Assembly: GCA_022729355.1 (NCBI GenBank)
Contig: JALDAN010000002.1
Coordinates: 1-47,645, forward strand
Direction: 5' to 3'
DNA from: Candidatus Nanohalarchaeota archaeon
GTDB taxonomy: Archaea; Nanohalarchaeota; Nanosalinia; Nanosalinales; Nanosalinaceae
DNA length: 47,645 bases
Shown: piece by piece, positions 8,860 through 46,330 of the stretch
How the letters are laid out: every line of letters starts with the position of its first letter
Position numbering within the stretch: position 1 is the stretch's first letter
Notes under the pieces: generated by a model
What the model was told of the DNA's origin: nothing
What the model saw: only the letters and a program-made list of their open reading frames with translations
Database searches by the model: none
Made by a program: the position numbers and the translations under genes

Positions 8860-10131
8860 TCACTGTTTAATTCCCAGAGCATTAAAAAGAGCTTTACGGT
8901 TTCCTGCATTCTTCGTTTCTCTTTGAAATCTGTTAGCTAATCTATCTGATGGCAACTCTCCTTTTTCGACTCGTTCCTTCAAGATCTCCATATAATTTTC
9001 TGAATCTATTCCATAGATCTCCAATCCTTCAGAGGCCTTTTCTATCTCCTTGAGAAGCATGTTTTCACTTTCTTCAAGAACACCTTCAGGACTATAAAAT
9101 TCTCCTTCCAGTCCGTGTCTCATGGCCTGTTCTCTATTATGATTAACTTTCTCGATGTCAAGAAGTTGTTCGCTTGAATCTATAGCGTAAAGTAAACGGC
9201 CTATACAGAATGCATGAACTGCTACATCTTCTCTTACTGACGGCTGAGTCGACGCTATACGTGACTCAACGATTAAATCATTCTCGCTGAATTTTATTCG
9301 GGAATCCTTCCAGAAATGCGCAATGTTTTTCTCCAGAATACTTTCTTCATACTCTATGACTTCGGGCCAGGCCTCAACACGCTCTAGATAATCTCTCATC
9401 GAGTCGAAGTAGCTATCCAGACGTCCTATATCAATCTCATCTGTACTATGTGATTTCTCCCAGAGAATCATCCGTAAATCTGAGAGGCCTGTATCCCTGC
9501 CATCAAGAAATCTGGCGTTCCCGGACAACGCTGAAATATAGGGAGATATCATGTATATGTAATTTGCTTTACTAACTGCATCCTCAAAGGAAGAGGCCTC
9601 GATATTAGTGTGTAAAGCTGATATAAGACTTGCCGCTCTTGCATCGCCTACGTCTATCTCGTTCTTATCTCCTAACTTTACGGTTTCATCATTTCTGAAA
9701 TATCTGTTTATTTTCTTCAAAGAAGGTTTCTGACTTAATTCAAGCTTTTCAAGTTCTCTGAAAGGATTTGTGCCGCTTCTGAGTAAGAAAAGATTTCTGT
9801 CCAGAGCTTCTTCCCTAAGTTTTTTCTCTTTCTCACTTATTTCCTGTTCAAGTTGTTTAAACGAACTCAATGCCAGTGCATCTGTAGCTATCTCGATGGA
9901 GTCTGCTGCGAGTTCTTGCTTGCAGAAATCAAGAGAGTCAAGGATTTCATTCCGCTTCTCCAAATCCTGTAAATGCTGCCGTTCTTCAACGAGAAAATAC
10001 TCTGTTTCCACTCCAACCTTCACAGTCGAGTCATCCTTCCTGAATTTCCTCTCATTATCAAACAGCTTCTCAACTTCATTCGAAAAGCACGATTCAGTGC
10101 TGTTTTCAGAACCTTCGTTAACAGATGCCAC
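8860..10131 (-). CDS. GCS2-family glutamate-cysteine ligase-like protein
   Basis: VGVETEYFLVEE..ELAADSIEIATDAL..SALHTNIEAS..ISPYISALSGNARFLDGRDTGLSDLR; GTG start. Confidence 0.85.
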   Translation of the reverse strand: MASVNEGSENSTESCFSNEVEKLFDNERKFRKDDSTVKVGVETEYFLVEERQHLQDLEKRNEILDSLDFCKQELAADSIEIATDALALSSFKQLEQEISEKEKKLREEALDRNLFLLRSGTNPFRELEKLELSQKPSLKKINRYFRNDETVKLGDKNEIDVGDARAASLISALHTNIEASSFEDAVSKANYIYMISPYISALSGNARFLDGRDTGLSDLRMILWEKSHSTDEIDIGRLDSYFDSMRDYLERVEAWPEVIEYEESILEKNIAHFWKDSRIKFSENDLIVESRIASTQPSVREDVAVHAFCIGRLLYAIDSSEQLLDIEKVNHNREQAMRHGLEGEFYSPEGVLEESENMLLKEIEKASEGLEIYGIDSENYMEILKERVEKGELPSDRLANRFQRETKNAGNRKALFNALGIKQ

Positions 10132-38881: not shown

Positions 38882-39448
38882 ATGACTGGAGTTAGAGGCT
38901 CAGCATCTTTAGTTAATGCAGAGGGTTTTAATCTGTATAGAATTGTGACGACATTCGCAGTGTCTTTCAGCTTTTACATGATCTTGGCCGGAAGCATCAC
39001 TATTTTCAACATAGTTACTGCTGTACTGACAGGTTTGATAGTAGCCTTAACTCTATCCAACGTTATGCTTCAATCCGATGAATCAAGCCACTTAACTACA
39101 AAGACATTTAGGTTTATTGTTTACGTTCCCTTAATATTAAAGGAAATTATAAGAGCAAATTTCAAGACTGCTTTCACTATCTTAAGTCCAAACATGCCTA
39201 TAGATCCTCGAATGATTGAATACAGGCCTCAAGTAAAAAGTAATTCAGCTTTGACTCTTTTAGCGAACAGTATAACTTTGACTCCTGGAACATTAACAGC
39301 AAAGATGTCTAAGGATACGTTTCATATTCATACTCTTGATGCTGATTCTCGTGAAGGTTTGAGATCCGGTTCTATTGAACGCGGCGTACAGTACGTTTTC
39401 GGACAACAAAGCGATTCTGGAGGTAGAGGTGAACAGAAACGAATCTAG
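38882..39448 (+). CDS. mnhE: Na+/H+ antiporter subunit MnhE
   Basis: KEIIRANFKTAFTILSPNMPIDPRMIEY..LTLLANSITLTPGTLTAKMSKDTFHIHTLD. Confidence 0.92.
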   Translation: MTGVRGSASLVNAEGFNLYRIVTTFAVSFSFYMILAGSITIFNIVTAVLTGLIVALTLSNVMLQSDESSHLTTKTFRFIVYVPLILKEIIRANFKTAFTILSPNMPIDPRMIEYRPQVKSNSALTLLANSITLTPGTLTAKMSKDTFHIHTLDADSREGLRSGSIERGVQYVFGQQSDSGGRGEQKRI

Positions 39449-39726
39449 CCGAGATATCAATCAACACTCTTTTCCTTGTATCTGCAGGAGTCCTGGTGCT
39501 ATTAGCTGTTCTGATGATTTATAGAGCGGTTAAAGGCCCTACTATGCAGGACAGGATTCTGGCAATAAACGTTCTGGGAACCAACACAGTAGTCATACTA
39601 GCTCTACTATCTGCAGCTCTGGAAACTCCTTATCTACTTGATATGGCAATGATCTATGCCTTACTCAACTTCGTTCTGGCAGTTGCAGTATCCAAATTTA
39701 CAGTTGAAAGAGGTGGAGTAATATGA
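39439..39726 (+). CDS. mnhF: Na+/H+ antiporter subunit MnhF, inferred ACG start (first canonical start GTG 39496)
   Basis: YRAVKGPTMQDRILAINVLGTNTVV; TM1 complete only if translated from upstream of 39496. Confidence 0.85.
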   Translation, partial: TNLAEISINTLFLVSAGVLVLLAVLMIYRAVKGPTMQDRILAINVLGTNTVVILALLSAALETPYLLDMAMIYALLNFVLAVAVSKFTVERGGVI

Positions 39727-40046
39727 TAGAAACACTGAGAGTAGTGATCATCTCCCTCCTCCTTGCTGGAGGCATATTCTTCACAGCCATCTCAGCCATC
39801 GGAATAATAAGGCTTCCAGATGTCTACACACGCTCCCACATGGCATCAGAAACCGATACATTAGGCGCAGGCCTCACACTTGCAGCAGTCGCAATAGCAC
39901 TGGGATGGCAAGCCCAGACAGTACTAACTATACTTCTGCTTGTATTCATATTCATAACTAATCCAACTGCAGCACACGCAATCGCCAGATCCGCCCTGAA
40001 TCAGGGAATAGAAATGTACGAAGTAAAGGACGGTGAAAAAAGATGA
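39723..40046 (+). CDS. mnhG: Na+/H+ antiporter subunit MnhG
   Basis: AISAIGIIRLPDVYTRSHMASETDTLGAGLTLAAVAI. Confidence 0.93.
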   Translation: MIETLRVVIISLLLAGGIFFTAISAIGIIRLPDVYTRSHMASETDTLGAGLTLAAVAIALGWQAQTVLTILLLVFIFITNPTAAHAIARSALNQGIEMYEVKDGEKR

Positions 40047-40606
40047 TAAGCGGCCTCGAAATCCCGTTCGTACAGATAGCTCTACTACTTTTCATACTGA
40101 TAACAAGCATTTCAACAGCACTACTCAAAGATGTCCTGGCCTCCATAATCCTTTTCACCTCCTACAGCCTCGGGATGGCCATTTACTATGTCCTGCTACT
40201 GGCGCCCGACGTCGGAATGACAGAAGCAGCAGTAAGCGCCGGAATAACAACGATACTCCTCCTACTAACGATTGCAAAAACAGTTCATCCTGGCCACCAG
40301 GAAGTCCTGGAAGACATCGAGTGGAAGGCCTTGATACCGCTGACATTCATGGTGCTGATACTGGCGTTGAACCTTACTCACTTCCCTGCATTGGGTGATC
40401 CAGAGGCCTCTGCCTGGAATAATCCGGTGACTCAGTATTACATCGAGAATAGTTACGAGGATCTCGGAGTACAGAACACAGTGACAGCTGTGCTGGCAGG
40501 TTACAGAGGGTTCGATACGTTGGGTGAGGCTGTCGTGGTATTTGCAGCAGGGATTGCTTCGTTAATCGTTTTACACAGGGAGGTGTTCACTGATGCGCAG
40601 GGATGA
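40043..40606 (+). CDS. DUF4040/MbhD-MbhE-like antiporter subunit
   Basis: APDVGMTEAAVSAGITTILLLLTI; QNTVTAVLAGYRGFDTLGEAVVVFAAG. Confidence 0.85.
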   Translation: MISGLEIPFVQIALLLFILITSISTALLKDVLASIILFTSYSLGMAIYYVLLLAPDVGMTEAAVSAGITTILLLLTIAKTVHPGHQEVLEDIEWKALIPLTFMVLILALNLTHFPALGDPEASAWNNPVTQYYIENSYEDLGVQNTVTAVLAGYRGFDTLGEAVVVFAAGIASLIVLHREVFTDAQG

Positions 40607-41084
40607 TCACGAGCTATCTATAATCAAAGATCACTGCATTGACAGTCTGATAATAGAGACAACTATTCGATTTGTCGCACCTTTTGTACTCACCTATGGA
40701 TTCTTCATGACATTTAACGGAGCCAGTACTCCGGGGGGAGCATTCCAGGGAGGCACTATAGTAGCTGCCACCATACTGATGATAGCTTTCGGCCTCGGAA
40801 TAGATGATATACGTAGAAAAGTCAAAGGAAGCTATCTCATAGATTTGATGATAGCAGGAAGCCTCATATTCAGTATAATAGGCCTCATGGGACTGGCTTT
40901 CGGAGGAAGCTTCTTCAACCACCAGTTTTTCACTCAACTAGGGATCGAAAATGGCGTCAAATGGAGTATGGAGGCAGTAGAAGTCGGCGGAGTATTCCTT
41001 ATAATAGTCGGCTCATTCGTAGGCCTTTTCTTCGTCATAGGCTCCGGCTTCAAACCCTTCAGAACAGGAGGTGAGGAGCTATAG
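40593..41084 (+). CDS. mnhB: Na+/H+ antiporter subunit MnhB
   Basis: FNGASTPGGAFQGGTIVAATILMIAFGLG. Confidence 0.92.
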   Translation: MRRDDHELSIIKDHCIDSLIIETTIRFVAPFVLTYGFFMTFNGASTPGGAFQGGTIVAATILMIAFGLGIDDIRRKVKGSYLIDLMIAGSLIFSIIGLMGLAFGGSFFNHQFFTQLGIENGVKWSMEAVEVGGVFLIIVGSFVGLFFVIGSGFKPFRTGGEEL

Positions 41085-41452
41085 CTCTGGAGATCCTATT
41101 CAATCAGTACACGTATCTATCGATGATCATACTACTGGCTCTAGGCCTTTACATGATGATAGCCAGTCCAAATCTTGTGAAGAAAGTGATAGGCCTCAAT
41201 ATCTTCCAATCAGCTATCTTCCTGTTTTTCATCTCCACAGCATACGTTGAAGACGGCTCTATACCGGTAGTATACCCTGAAGCATCCGGAATGACACACG
41301 TCAGCCCTTTGCCTCATGTGATAGTGCTGACAGCGATCGTTGTTGGAGTGGCACTGACTGCTGTAGCGCTGGCGCTGATCATAAGAATCTACTCGGAGTA
41401 CGGAACCCTGAATATACGGGAAATTGAAGAGGTGAATCAAGCTGAACATTGA
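41081..41452 (+). CDS. mnhC: Na+/H+ antiporter subunit MnhC, inferred AUA (41081) or CUG (41087) start; first ATG 41123
   Basis: LGLYMMIASPNLVKKVIGLNIFQSAIFLFFIS; PLPHVIVLTAIVVGVALTAVALALIIRIY. Confidence 0.85.
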   Translation: MALEILFNQYTYLSMIILLALGLYMMIASPNLVKKVIGLNIFQSAIFLFFISTAYVEDGSIPVVYPEASGMTHVSPLPHVIVLTAIVVGVALTAVALALIIRIYSEYGTLNIREIEEVNQAEH

Positions 41453-42959
41453 AGCTGCTTTACCTCTCCTGATAATGCTGCCTATCATCGGATCCACTTT
41501 CCCGCTGATAGCCAGTAAAATCAAGGAAGAATACAGTGGAGGCCTCGTAACAGCGATCCTCTTGACGTGCCAGAGCATTGTTGCAGGGCTTGTTGCCTAC
41601 AGTGTTTACTCCAGAGGCCCGATACTCTACGGTGTTGGAGGAGAAAGTCTGAGCAGGCCTGAAGGCTTCGCCATCGGTGTGGAGTTACTTGCTGATGAAT
41701 TTTCGGCAATACTCGTGCTTCTGGCCAGTTTAATTACTCTTTCAACTGTGATCTATGCCGTCAGGATTTCATCGAGAAGTCCAACTTTCCTCAGTGGAGT
41801 GCTTCTTCTTATTGGAGGTATCATGGGTGTCCTGATGACTCATGATGTATTCAATCTCTTCGTCTTCCTGGAGATAACAGGGATAGCAACCTACGCCTTG
41901 ATAGCAAGCGGAAAATCGAAGGAATCCTCTCTTACATCATTCAAATATCTTCTTATCGGCACTACTGGGGCCTCGCTGTACCTGCTGGGAGTAGGCTTCC
42001 TTTACATGACTACAGGAACACTCAACATCTCCGATCTCTCAACAGTACTGGCCGGAGAAGGATTCATAGATGAACCTCTATACGGAAACCCGTTAGTTCA
42101 ACTCAGCTTTGCATTTATCTCAACAGGCCTCCTGATAAAATGCGCCATCTTCCCGCTACACACATGGCAGCCGGACGCCTACGACTATGCACCACACTCT
42201 ATCACAGCACTAATCGCAGCACTCGTATCCACGGCTTCAGCATACGTATTCGGCAGACTACTATTCAACGTCTACACACCTGAATTCTTCGTGGCCAACC
42301 CGTTAGCCGCAGAAATAATCATAATTGTATCAGGCCTCAGCGTAGTAGCAGGCAGTGTACTGGCAGTCATGCAGGAAAACATCAAGAGAATGCTGGCTTA
42401 CTCATCAGTATCACACTTCGGACTGATACTCGCCGCCTTCGCCGCAGCAGTACAGCCATCCGGCAGCATAGAGGCCTTGATCGGAGGCATTATCCACCTC
42501 ACAGGCCACGGACTGGTCAAGGCAGGAATGTTCTTTGGAGCAGGCCTCCTGATAATATACACAGGAAGCAAGAATATACATGACTTCAGAGGCCTCGGTG
42601 AAAAACTAAGAGGGGTATCCGGATCAGTTTCATTAATGGGAATAGTGCTGATCGGTGTTCCACCTAGTATCGGTTTCCTGGGCAAATGGTATATCGTTCT
42701 GGGAGCCATTAAATCGGAGATGTGGGTTCTGGCAGGCCTCGTACTCTTCAGCACATTGCTCACGCTCATGTACGTTGCAAAACTGGTTGAGACACTGTTC
42801 TTCAGCAATAAAGAGAGTTCAGGAAGCCGGGTCAAGATATACAGAGTACTGGTACTGATCCCTGTATTTTTCGCCTTACTGTCTGTACTGCTGGGATTCA
42901 CAGGCAGTGCCTGGTTCGACGGTTTGATGCCGTTCGCTGAAGAGGTGATGAATAAGTGA
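41442..42959 (+). CDS. mnhD: Na+/H+ antiporter subunit MnhD, inferred CUG start; first ATG 41475
   Basis: MLAYSSVSHFGLILAAFAAA; HLTGHGLVKAGMFFGAGLLI. Confidence 0.88.
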   Translation: MNIEAALPLLIMLPIIGSTFPLIASKIKEEYSGGLVTAILLTCQSIVAGLVAYSVYSRGPILYGVGGESLSRPEGFAIGVELLADEFSAILVLLASLITLSTVIYAVRISSRSPTFLSGVLLLIGGIMGVLMTHDVFNLFVFLEITGIATYALIASGKSKESSLTSFKYLLIGTTGASLYLLGVGFLYMTTGTLNISDLSTVLAGEGFIDEPLYGNPLVQLSFAFISTGLLIKCAIFPLHTWQPDAYDYAPHSITALIAALVSTASAYVFGRLLFNVYTPEFFVANPLAAEIIIIVSGLSVVAGSVLAVMQENIKRMLAYSSVSHFGLILAAFAAAVQPSGSIEALIGGIIHLTGHGLVKAGMFFGAGLLIIYTGSKNIHDFRGLGEKLRGVSGSVSLMGIVLIGVPPSIGFLGKWYIVLGAIKSEMWVLAGLVLFSTLLTLMYVAKLVETLFFSNKESSGSRVKIYRVLVLIPVFFALLSVLLGFTGSAWFDGLMPFAEEVMNK

Positions 42960-44563
42960 CAGAGCAGGTGGTAGCTGATGTAAGGCCTCTACTTGCTGTC
43001 GTGGTTTCTCTTGTGGCGGCGGCGTTGATCCTTCTGTCAAGCAGGAGGCCTGATTTAAGGGAGGGCTGGTCTGTACTCGCCGCTTTTGTTAAGTTTGGTA
43101 TCGTGTTGAGTATGCTTCCAGGTGTTTTATCCGGTAAAGAGTATTACTGGTCTTTCGGGCAGTTTATTCATGGTATAGAGTTCGCATTGAAGGTGGATAT
43201 GCTTGGAATGCTGTTTGCCTTGCTCTCCAGCTTCCTGTGGATATTCACTGTATTTTATACGGCCGGCTACATGCGTAGTCTTAGTGAGGCTAATCAGACA
43301 AGGTTTTTCGCAGCTTTCGCTGCCAGTCTTTCCACAGCTATCGGCATTGCTTTTGCCGAGAATCTTTTGACAATATTCATTTTCTATGAACTGCTTTCCG
43401 TAGCGACTTATCCTCTTGTAGCCCACAACGAGGATGAAGAGGCCCGTGCAGCAGGCAGAAAGTATCTGGCCTACACATTCTTTGGAGGAGGATTCCTTGT
43501 ACTTGGAGGAACTGCAATGGTGCATTCTGCTGCCGGTACCACAAGCTTCGGTGAAACAGCTGCAGGCCTCGCAAATGCCGATCCATTACTGGCTCAGGCT
43601 GCCTTTGCGTTCCTAATCCTGGGCTTTGGGACTAAAGCTGCATTGATGCCTTTCCATTCATGGCTTCCGGATGCAATGGTGGCGCCGACACCTGTTTCCG
43701 GCTTACTCCATGCTGTTGCTGTAGTTAAATCAGGGGCCTTCGGAATATCAAGAGTATTCCTTGACGTATACAGTCCGGAGTTAGTGGTGGAACTTGGCTT
43801 GCATATCCCTGTAGCAGCACTGGCGGCATTCACCTTCATCACCGCATCGTTTATCGCTCTGAAGAAGGATCATCTGAAGAGGAGGCTGGCTTACTCCACT
43901 ATATCGCAGCTCTCCTATATCGTACTGGGAATCGCATTGTTGACACCGTACGGTATAGTCGGAGGATTGCTTCACATACCTGCACACGCATTCATGAAGC
44001 TTACACTGTTCTTCTGTGCAGGAGCAATCCATGTAGAAACGCACAAGGATTACATCAGCGAACTCGCAGGCGTAGGCAAAAGGATGCCGACAACTATGAG
44101 GGCCTTTGCAGTTGCAGCCGCAGGCATGGCAGGCCTCCCACTATTGGCTGGATTCGTCAGCAAGTTCTATCTGGTGATTGGATCAATACAGATGAATGAT
44201 CCGGAAGTGATGTTCGGAGAACCAGCAGTTGCAGGCCTTGTATTTGCCGCTGCTCTTGTTTTCTCAGGCGTGCTGAATATCGCCTATTTCTGGCCTGTAG
44301 TGTACACAGCTTTCTTTGAAGATGAGGAGGATCATCGCTCCAAGCCGCTTCTGGACAGTGTACTTGGAGGGGAGAAAGAGGCCTATGATTACACGTGGGA
44401 TAGCCGTAACTTCCTGAATGAAACGACGTGGCTGATGCTTCTACCGATATTACTGGTCGTTACAGGAGCGGTAATACTGGGAGTTGTTCCTCAGCACTTT
44501 GCATTCCTTGAACTGGCTATTAATATCGCGGAAAATGCTACAGGTATGGAGGTGAGGCCTTGA
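42956..44563 (+). CDS. Na+/H+ antiporter MnhA/D-like subunit (second copy)
   Basis: FGTKAALMPFHSWLPDAMVAPTPVSGLLHAVAVVKSGAFGISR. Confidence 0.92.
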   Translation: MTEQVVADVRPLLAVVVSLVAAALILLSSRRPDLREGWSVLAAFVKFGIVLSMLPGVLSGKEYYWSFGQFIHGIEFALKVDMLGMLFALLSSFLWIFTVFYTAGYMRSLSEANQTRFFAAFAASLSTAIGIAFAENLLTIFIFYELLSVATYPLVAHNEDEEARAAGRKYLAYTFFGGGFLVLGGTAMVHSAAGTTSFGETAAGLANADPLLAQAAFAFLILGFGTKAALMPFHSWLPDAMVAPTPVSGLLHAVAVVKSGAFGISRVFLDVYSPELVVELGLHIPVAALAAFTFITASFIALKKDHLKRRLAYSTISQLSYIVLGIALLTPYGIVGGLLHIPAHAFMKLTLFFCAGAIHVETHKDYISELAGVGKRMPTTMRAFAVAAAGMAGLPLLAGFVSKFYLVIGSIQMNDPEVMFGEPAVAGLVFAAALVFSGVLNIAYFWPVVYTAFFEDEEDHRSKPLLDSVLGGEKEAYDYTWDSRNFLNETTWLMLLPILLVVTGAVILGVVPQHFAFLELAINIAENATGMEVRP

Positions 44564-46330
44564 ATGGATCCTGTAGCAATACCTCCATTCGTTCTAGTGT
44601 TTGTGGGTGCTCTGGCACTTTATTTCCTGCCTAGAAGGCTTGGCTTCAGTATGGGGATTCTTTCCGTGATTTCAGCGGGCTTTATCATAGCTACTCTTTC
44701 CTACGGTACGTATCACGAGTATACAGTGTTCGGTGTATTTGATGTAGTGCTGTTCAGACTGGATGTGTTCAACGCATTGATTGGAGTGATCTTTGCATTA
44801 CTGGGGTCTGCGGCCTTACTCTACAGCTATGCCAGTGAACTACCTGAAAAAACGGCAGCTGTAGCTCTTTTCTACATGGCCTCTACCTTCGGAGCGTTAT
44901 TTGCTGGTGACTGGCTTACACTGCTTATATTCGCCGAACTGATGGCTGTAACCAGTACAGTACTTGTCTGGCAGTACGGAGGAGAAGCAGTACGGGCAGC
45001 ATACAGATACGCACTGGCACACGGTATAGCAGGCACACTCATGTTCATGGGAGTAGCATGGCACTACATCTCTGCTGGAAGCCTCGAACTTACAGCGACC
45101 GGTATCGCCAGCGGATGGCCTACCTTACTGATGATCCTCGGAATAGGGATCAACTGCGGATTCATAGGCCTCCATATGTGGCTTCCTGACACTTATCCGA
45201 GACCTCACTTCGCAGCATCCGTCTTCTTGAGCGTCTTCACTACTAAGACTAGTGCCTATATTTTGTTCAGGATCTTCCCTGAAGGCGGTGCAGCACTGGC
45301 ACTGGCGTATATGGGAGGTGCGATGGCGATCTACGGAGTGATCTTCGCTCTTCTCCAGCATAACATGAGGGCGTTGCTTTCTTACCATATTCAGGCACAG
45401 ATGGGATATATGATAGCAGGGATAGGCCTTGGACTGTATCTTGGAGGTGAGGCCTTGAATGTAGGTGTAGGTGGAGCTACTGCTCATCTCGTCAATAATA
45501 TACTGTTCAAGTCTTTGCTTTTCATGGCTGTCGGAGTCATAATCTACAGGACCGGTATCGAAAATCTCTACGAACTGGGAGGCCTCTACAAAGTTATGCC
45601 TCTGACTTTTGCTGCTTTCCTTCTAGGAGCTCTTTCAATCACAGCTGTTCCAGGCTTCAACGGATTTATCAGTAAAGGCCTGATTCTGGACGCAGCTAAC
45701 CCAGTTTATTTTGGAGGCGGAAACACTGTTATTTACTGGATGCTGATGATAGGGGCAGTAGGGACATTTCTTTCGTTCATCAAGCTAGGATACTACGTCT
45801 TCCTCCACAACAAGCCGGAATTGAATGTTCAGGATGCCAACAGGCTTCAAACAGTCAGTATGCTGTTTATCGGAGGCTTCTGCCTTCTATTAGGTGTTCA
45901 CTGGACTGCCTTCGTTGAAAAACTGCCTCTACTCGGCGCTGATATAAGGCTACAGCCTTACAGCGCAGGGCATCTACAGGATGCCTTAATGCTTTCAATA
46001 ACAAGTCTCGTTGTCTTCAAGATAATCAGGAAGCCTCTGTCCAGTCTACACATCAGTGATCCGGCCTCACTGCAGTATCCACTGATCTTCCATTTAACAG
46101 AGCTAATCACAGGCCTCATCTCCAGAATCTACGGTCCAGTCGATAACACCGTGAAGAAAGTAGTCAGAAAGCTTTACTCCAAGTGTAGTGATCCTGAAAG
46201 CTTTGAATCCACCGTTAATACTCTCCTGCAGAGAGATGAAGATATAAGGCCTGGAGCAGGCCTGAATGAGGCATTGCTTATTGTAGTTACGTTCCTGACT
46301 CTGATGCTGGCATTATTCACTATGATCTGA
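44564..46330 (+). CDS. Na+/H+ antiporter MnhA/D-like subunit (third copy)
   Basis: GINCGFIGLHMWLPDTYPRPHFAASVFLSVFTTKTSAYILFRIFPEG; ALLSYHIQAQMGYMIAGIGLGL. Confidence 0.9.
   Translation: MDPVAIPPFVLVFVGALALYFLPRRLGFSMGILSVISAGFIIATLSYGTYHEYTVFGVFDVVLFRLDVFNALIGVIFALLGSAALLYSYASELPEKTAAVALFYMASTFGALFAGDWLTLLIFAELMAVTSTVLVWQYGGEAVRAAYRYALAHGIAGTLMFMGVAWHYISAGSLELTATGIASGWPTLLMILGIGINCGFIGLHMWLPDTYPRPHFAASVFLSVFTTKTSAYILFRIFPEGGAALALAYMGGAMAIYGVIFALLQHNMRALLSYHIQAQMGYMIAGIGLGLYLGGEALNVGVGGATAHLVNNILFKSLLFMAVGVIIYRTGIENLYELGGLYKVMPLTFAAFLLGALSITAVPGFNGFISKGLILDAANPVYFGGGNTVIYWMLMIGAVGTFLSFIKLGYYVFLHNKPELNVQDANRLQTVSMLFIGGFCLLLGVHWTAFVEKLPLLGADIRLQPYSAGHLQDALMLSITSLVVFKIIRKPLSSLHISDPASLQYPLIFHLTELITGLISRIYGPVDNTVKKVVRKLYSKCSDPESFESTVNTLLQRDEDIRPGAGLNEALLIVVTFLTLMLALFTMI

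Follow-up and report, generated by a model that had tools for sequence, protein, structure and literature searches.

Results

The window analysed here, a 47,645-nucleotide stretch of Candidatus Nanohalarchaeota DNA, is contig C36 of genome G000 (886 kb in 48 contigs, about 90% complete), which is probably a metagenome assembly and probably belongs to a tiny salt-loving archaeon. Positions 38882-46330 of the forward strand hold a complete nine-gene Mrp (Mnh) cation/proton antiporter operon in the order E-F-G-DUF4040(MbhD/E)-B-C-D-D-D. All nine frames are open and have strong Pfam family matches; the A/D-type, B, C, E, F and G subunits are encoded together, in the order found in haloarchaeal Mrp operons. 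Three of the genes, mnhF, mnhC and the first mnhD, appear to begin not with ATG or GTG but with the near-cognate codons ACG, ATA and CTG, respectively.

In each of the three genes the putative start codon follows a GAGGTGA motif at a distance of exactly 6 nt and overlaps the end of the preceding gene. For mnhF (39439-39726; PF04066, E = 8.3e-18), GAGGTGA at 39426-39432 is followed by ACAGAA and ACG (39439-39441), and the TAG stop of mnhE (38882-39448; PF01899, E = 4.6e-32) lies 7-9 nt past the first base of that codon, giving a 10-nt overlap. For mnhC (41081-41452; PF00420, E = 5e-23), GAGGTGA at 41068-41074 forms part of a longer match, AGGAGGTGA (41066-41074), and is followed by GGAGCT and ATA (41081-41083), which shares the 4-nt ATAG with the TAG stop of mnhB. 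For mnhD (41442-42959; PF00361, E = 6.8e-56), GAGGTGA at 41429-41435 precedes ATCAAG and CTG (41442-41444), 11 nt overlapping with the end of mnhC. The first ATG, GTG or TTG codons in these frames lie further downstream, at GTG 39496, ATG 41123 and ATG 41475. A previous sequence-only reading of this DNA had described the three sites, and its coordinates, motifs and spacings proved correct to the base. The in-frame TGA codons that it placed at 39430, 41072 and 41433 are also present. Each, however, is the TGA of its own GAGGTGA and is automatically in frame at a spacing of 6, so that it bounds the start without being independent evidence for it.

The 3' end of the 16S rRNA of G000 is GGATCACCTCC, the complement of GGAGGTGATCC, and GAGGTGA is therefore a true Shine-Dalgarno (SD) sequence. 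The SD matches are 7 nt for mnhF, 9 nt for mnhC and 7 nt for mnhD; at least 7 nt is reached in just 24 of 756 canonical genes. GAGGTG is not enriched across the window (22 found, 22.8 expected), though it is placed at gene junctions. A dicodon model of the genome that takes no account of start codons begins mnhF coding exactly at 39439 and mnhC coding one codon ahead of ATA, and is less precise for mnhD (41487). All three codons are one base from ATG and occupy the orthologous start position; for three arbitrary non-canonical sense codons at such positions all to be one step from ATG, p is about 0.002 (7 of 58 codons). We also surveyed 841 kb of G000 by SD sequence, an approach blind to leaderless genes. 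At a spacing of 6, strong SD sequences preceded a canonical codon in 19 cases, had a canonical codon within five in 17, and preceded a near-cognate in five and another codon in three. Among genes without a nearby canonical start, the ratio of near-cognate to other codons was thus 5:3, against about 2:18 at the control spacings of 3, 9 and 12 (Fisher p = 0.009, same-gene repeats removed by hand, the five including the three Mrp genes). These statistics are post hoc, draw on few cases and include the very genes that raised the question, and are best taken as indicative.

The remaining genes of the operon have canonical starts. mnhG (39723-40046; PF03334) offers a direct comparison, with ATG 6 nt behind the GAGGTGG at 39710, and mnhB (40593-41084; PF04039) likewise has ATG at this spacing. 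The DUF4040/MbhD-MbhE subunit (40043-40606; PF13244 and PF20501) starts at ATG, and the two further D-type subunits (42956-46330; PF00361) at GTG 42956 and ATG 44564.

To place these starts in context, we compared 28 genomes of the phylum and up to 14 operons with this gene order that tblastn found on haloarchaeal plasmids. Within the phylum, the only other operon of this type was found in G027 (L020), a member of another family, whose MnhD is 53% identical. Its contig is cut before mnhF, so that mnhC and mnhD are the genes comparable there. It retains the 6-nt spacing at the positions seen in the window but has GTG in all three genes that could be read: GAGGTGT-TCACCG-GTG for mnhB, GGGGTGA-GACACA-GTG for mnhC and GAGGTGA-TGGCCA-GTG for mnhD. 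The haloarchaeal operons (e.g. that of Natronorubrum bangense, L087) share the order E-F-G-DUF4040-B-C-D-D-D, their best MnhD matches are about 42-46% identical, and in the Natrialbaceae examples SD-led starts and overlaps lie at the same positions. They differ in having a long fused MnhE in most cases and ATG or GTG at all three genes: mnhC in 14 of 14, mnhD in 13 of 13 and, at the same SD-led position, mnhF, for which the listed start is GTG or ATG in 11 of 13 operons, while L089 and L091 are listed with ATC or CTG and have an in-frame GTG just upstream. More broadly, the haloarchaeal Mrp starts annotated as ATC or CTG (L089:2330, L090:8042, L091:2164, L175:8000 and L179:8081) all have an in-frame GTG or ATG just upstream and look like annotation quirks rather than near-cognate starts.

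The homologous N-termini align to the near-cognate codons of G000 (for MnhD, LNIEAALPLLIMLP vs VNPDWILPVLILLP), which, together with the ATG or GTG of the relatives, bears out the earlier proposal that translation most likely starts at ACG, ATA and CTG. Conservation of the near-cognates themselves, which that reading had put forward as a check, was not found: they are conserved in no relative with the operon (G027 and the haloarchaeal operons, no closer relative being compared). The genomes of the same genus that were compared lack the operon, scans of viral contigs and of GTDB contigs yielded no close orthologue, and the Mrp-type operons elsewhere in the family have an MnhD just 26-28% identical and canonical starts where these could be placed. 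Since relatives carry ATG or GTG at the orthologous codons, it appears that ancestral canonical starts became near-cognates in the G000 lineage, and the starts of mnhF, mnhC and mnhD would thus be derived there.

Near-cognate starts in this group are not confined to the Mrp operon. An AbrB/MazE-like protein of 47 residues in G000 (L055:16376-16516, minus strand, contig C30) has a CTG start behind GAGGTGA, and the corresponding codon is ATG in G009, a genome from another genus assembled in a single contig. The frame lacks ATG, GTG and TTG, so standard gene callers would miss the gene altogether. On contig C21, a pilin-like protein (L046:4777-5043, minus strand) starts at ATC, a codon that is ATG in the paralogue next to it and in several relatives. 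Also on C21, a signal-peptide-like protein (L046:8602-9003, minus strand), with no homologue found in the family, probably starts at an ATT that lies 2 nt past the preceding TAA. As antisense frames dominated a plain comparison of G000 with G009, a coding model was used for the results given here. In G009 itself, msrA appears to begin with CTG (LKTATFAGGCFWC; L141, minus strand, near 9997) behind AGGAGGT, its first canonical codon lying past the conserved GCFWC motif, and a secreted protein probably starts at ATT. Near-cognate starts are therefore a rare general trait here, and the Mrp operon, with three such starts among its nine genes, is the extreme case. A further pilin-like match in G000 (C30:569-802, minus strand) spans one in-frame TAA and is possibly a pseudogene or two frames.

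The six near-cognate starts of G000 share their setting. All lie no more than 12 nt from the stop codon of the gene before (the Mrp starts overlapping it, the other three 12, 2 and 6 nt past it), compared with 35 of 66 canonical strong-SD genes that lie within 15 nt of the upstream stop (p about 0.02). Their SD matches are 7, 9, 7, 7, 6 and 5 nt, five of which were counted as strong, and a match of at least 7 nt is found in four of the five homology-supported cases vs 24 of the 756 canonical genes. In position, the overlapping stops and starts of mnhF, mnhC and mnhD are those of termination-reinitiation coupling. Strong SD sequences and overlaps are ancestral in the operon, and we therefore read them as permissive conditions and not as compensation.

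The initiation factor aIF1 has been reported to discriminate against non-canonical starts (reviewed in PMC8211752). A SUI1 model search of G000 gave no aIF1 match, compared with 16 of 19 genomes of the family in which the factor is present; aIF2-beta and aIF1A are present in G000. By synteny with G013 and G004, however, the aIF1 slot falls in the interval that separates the end of contig C8 (34431) from that of contig C5 (20279), so that the gene most likely lies in an assembly gap, and loss of aIF1 is at most a possible cause of relaxed starts.

Discussion

Taken together, these comparisons make it probable, by a comfortable margin over an even chance, that mnhF, mnhC and mnhD are translated from the ACG, ATA and CTG that lie 6 nt behind their SD sequences, and that these codons have replaced an ancestral ATG or GTG; initiation there, coupling to the upstream gene and methionine as the first residue are what we infer from the sequences. 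In the mechanism that we propose, near-cognates would have taken the place of ATG or GTG while the strong SD sequence and the overlap with the upstream stop were retained. A ribosome finishing the upstream gene would be held at GAGGTGA, a few nucleotides from the start, where the initiator tRNA could pair with two of three bases and the single mismatch would be tolerated. A poor start codon may thus be offset by a strong ribosome-binding site located where the preceding gene ends, and the other near-cognate starts of G000 would follow the same rule.

Elements of this mechanism have precedents. Haloferax reinitiates at overlapping genes, a process that requires an overlap or a very short distance (a gap of 20 nt nearly abolishes it) and that is enriched for the subunits of complexes (PMC6728339, PMC10666635). 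Such reinitiating pairs resemble the Mrp genes in their overlapping or nearly abutting stop and start, in the SD sequence inside the upstream gene and in encoding subunits of one complex; they have been studied with canonical starts, and the accessible parts of those studies report no near-cognate effect. In bacteria, the near-cognate starts of infC and pcnB in E. coli and of infC, cvfC1 and ccpN in S. aureus likewise differ from ATG at one base and follow an SD sequence of unusual length (PMC13009471). Those of S. aureus differ in being conserved across species and in having been measured to lower output, whereas the Mrp codons are not conserved, include ACG, sit at gene overlaps and occur three to an operon. 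Among archaea, ribosome profiling of Methanosarcina assigned CTG to 5% of unannotated small open reading frames (PMC11456600), and our search of the open-access literature turned up no description of near-cognate starts for this phylum.

Several considerations weigh against our interpretation. What sequence and homology show is the position and arrangement of the putative near-cognate starts, and no close relative in which their conservation could be shown carries the operon. As the SD sequences and overlaps are ancestral in the operon, the association of near-cognates with them there does not amount to three independent events, and the cases outside the Mrp genes are few, in a survey blind to leaderless genes. 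That coupling as such relaxes the choice of start codon is our inference, and the published work, in the parts accessible to us, does not demonstrate it. The broader proposition, that reinitiation at SD-bearing overlaps is markedly relaxed in codon choice in these archaea, such that operon-internal genes drift freely among ACG, ATA, ATT, ATC and CTG and are systematically missed or truncated by standard gene callers, is accordingly a tentative one, to which we would give somewhat less than an even chance.

How else might the three genes be expressed? Standard gene callers choose the downstream canonical codons, which would give slightly shorter subunits, and this choice has some merit, as GTG 39496 has AGGAG 5 nt upstream and ATG 41123 would keep most of the first transmembrane helix of MnhC. 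We nonetheless consider it unlikely. ATG 41123 and ATG 41475 have no SD sequence, and the three codons follow the upstream stops at distances of 47, 38 and 22 nt, beyond the reinitiation range measured in Haloferax (PMC10666635). GTG 39496 and ATG 41475 would moreover truncate the first transmembrane helix in MnhF and MnhD, as the sequence-only reading had pointed out, and the residues lost would be ones that align with those of relatives. An equally unlikely alternative is that the near-cognates are regulated weak starts of the infC or ccpN type, serving to restrain the production of MnhF, MnhC and MnhD or to make it conditional. The AUU and AUA starts of S. aureus, accompanied by extended SD sequences, do reach about 10% of the output of AUG, and the growth medium affects one of them (PMC13009471). 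This idea, in the form that near-cognate starts tune subunit stoichiometry, had been raised for this operon and found no support in the comparisons: in the solved Mrp complex 7qru, subunits A, C and D are present as one chain each, in 6z16 A and C are present as two chains each, and starts of the same kind occur in unrelated genes. Conserved regulation would also predict conserved near-cognates, and none is conserved. The overlapping stop/start layout points instead to coupling that keeps the subunits even, not uneven.

Damage of one kind or another is less probable still. The three codons could stem from errors in sequencing or assembly, or represent a minor strain variant, given that G000 is a single draft genome in 48 contigs and that one genome of the species was compared; yet across 413 genes compared with G009 (112,480 residues) there was no frameshift and no nonsense codon in the conserved body, the in-frame stops listed lying near alignment ends and mostly upstream of the start. 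Errors would also have had to fall on three start codons, leave a near-cognate each time and keep every frame of the operon open, and we hold this explanation to be quite improbable. Much the same low standing applies to decay of the operon, in which lost start codons would mean that the subunits are no longer properly made. Three damaged starts in one operon, and the absence of that operon from the same-genus genomes compared, would suit this explanation, but the nine frames are open with strong family matches, the SD sequences and overlaps are preserved, and the codons left are near-cognates and not random ones. Least probable of all, to the point of being barely credible, is that ribosomes enter the three genes not by new initiation but by shifting frame out of the upstream gene, whose frame each of them overlaps or abuts. 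Frameshifting can be stimulated by SD-like motifs. However, the shifts needed differ (-1, -1 and +1), only a short stretch, with no slippery sequence seen by eye, separates the in-frame TGA from the upstream stop, and relatives carry genuine start codons at this position; frameshifting was rejected on these grounds, as judged from sequence. Editing of the RNA, which in plastids can turn ACG into AUG, was rejected as well, being unable to explain ATA or CTG.

If initiation at ACG, ATA and CTG is confirmed, the identity of a start codon would matter less than its position when the ribosome is handed over from an upstream gene, which bears on how archaeal initiation checks the codon. Gene finders limited to ATG, GTG and TTG would then give the wrong N-terminus for three of the nine subunits of this operon.

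Finally, the window is rich in the palindrome AGGCCT, which occurs 220 times against 10.9 expected. Across 841 kb of G000 it is the top hexamer (3429 copies, 4.08 per kb, about 21 times expectation), whereas its density is only 0.21 per kb in G009 and, in the counted part of G013, a genome of the same genus, 0.36 per kb. Such heavy repetition of AGGCCT is specific to the lineage, and its abundance compares with that of HIP1 in cyanobacteria.

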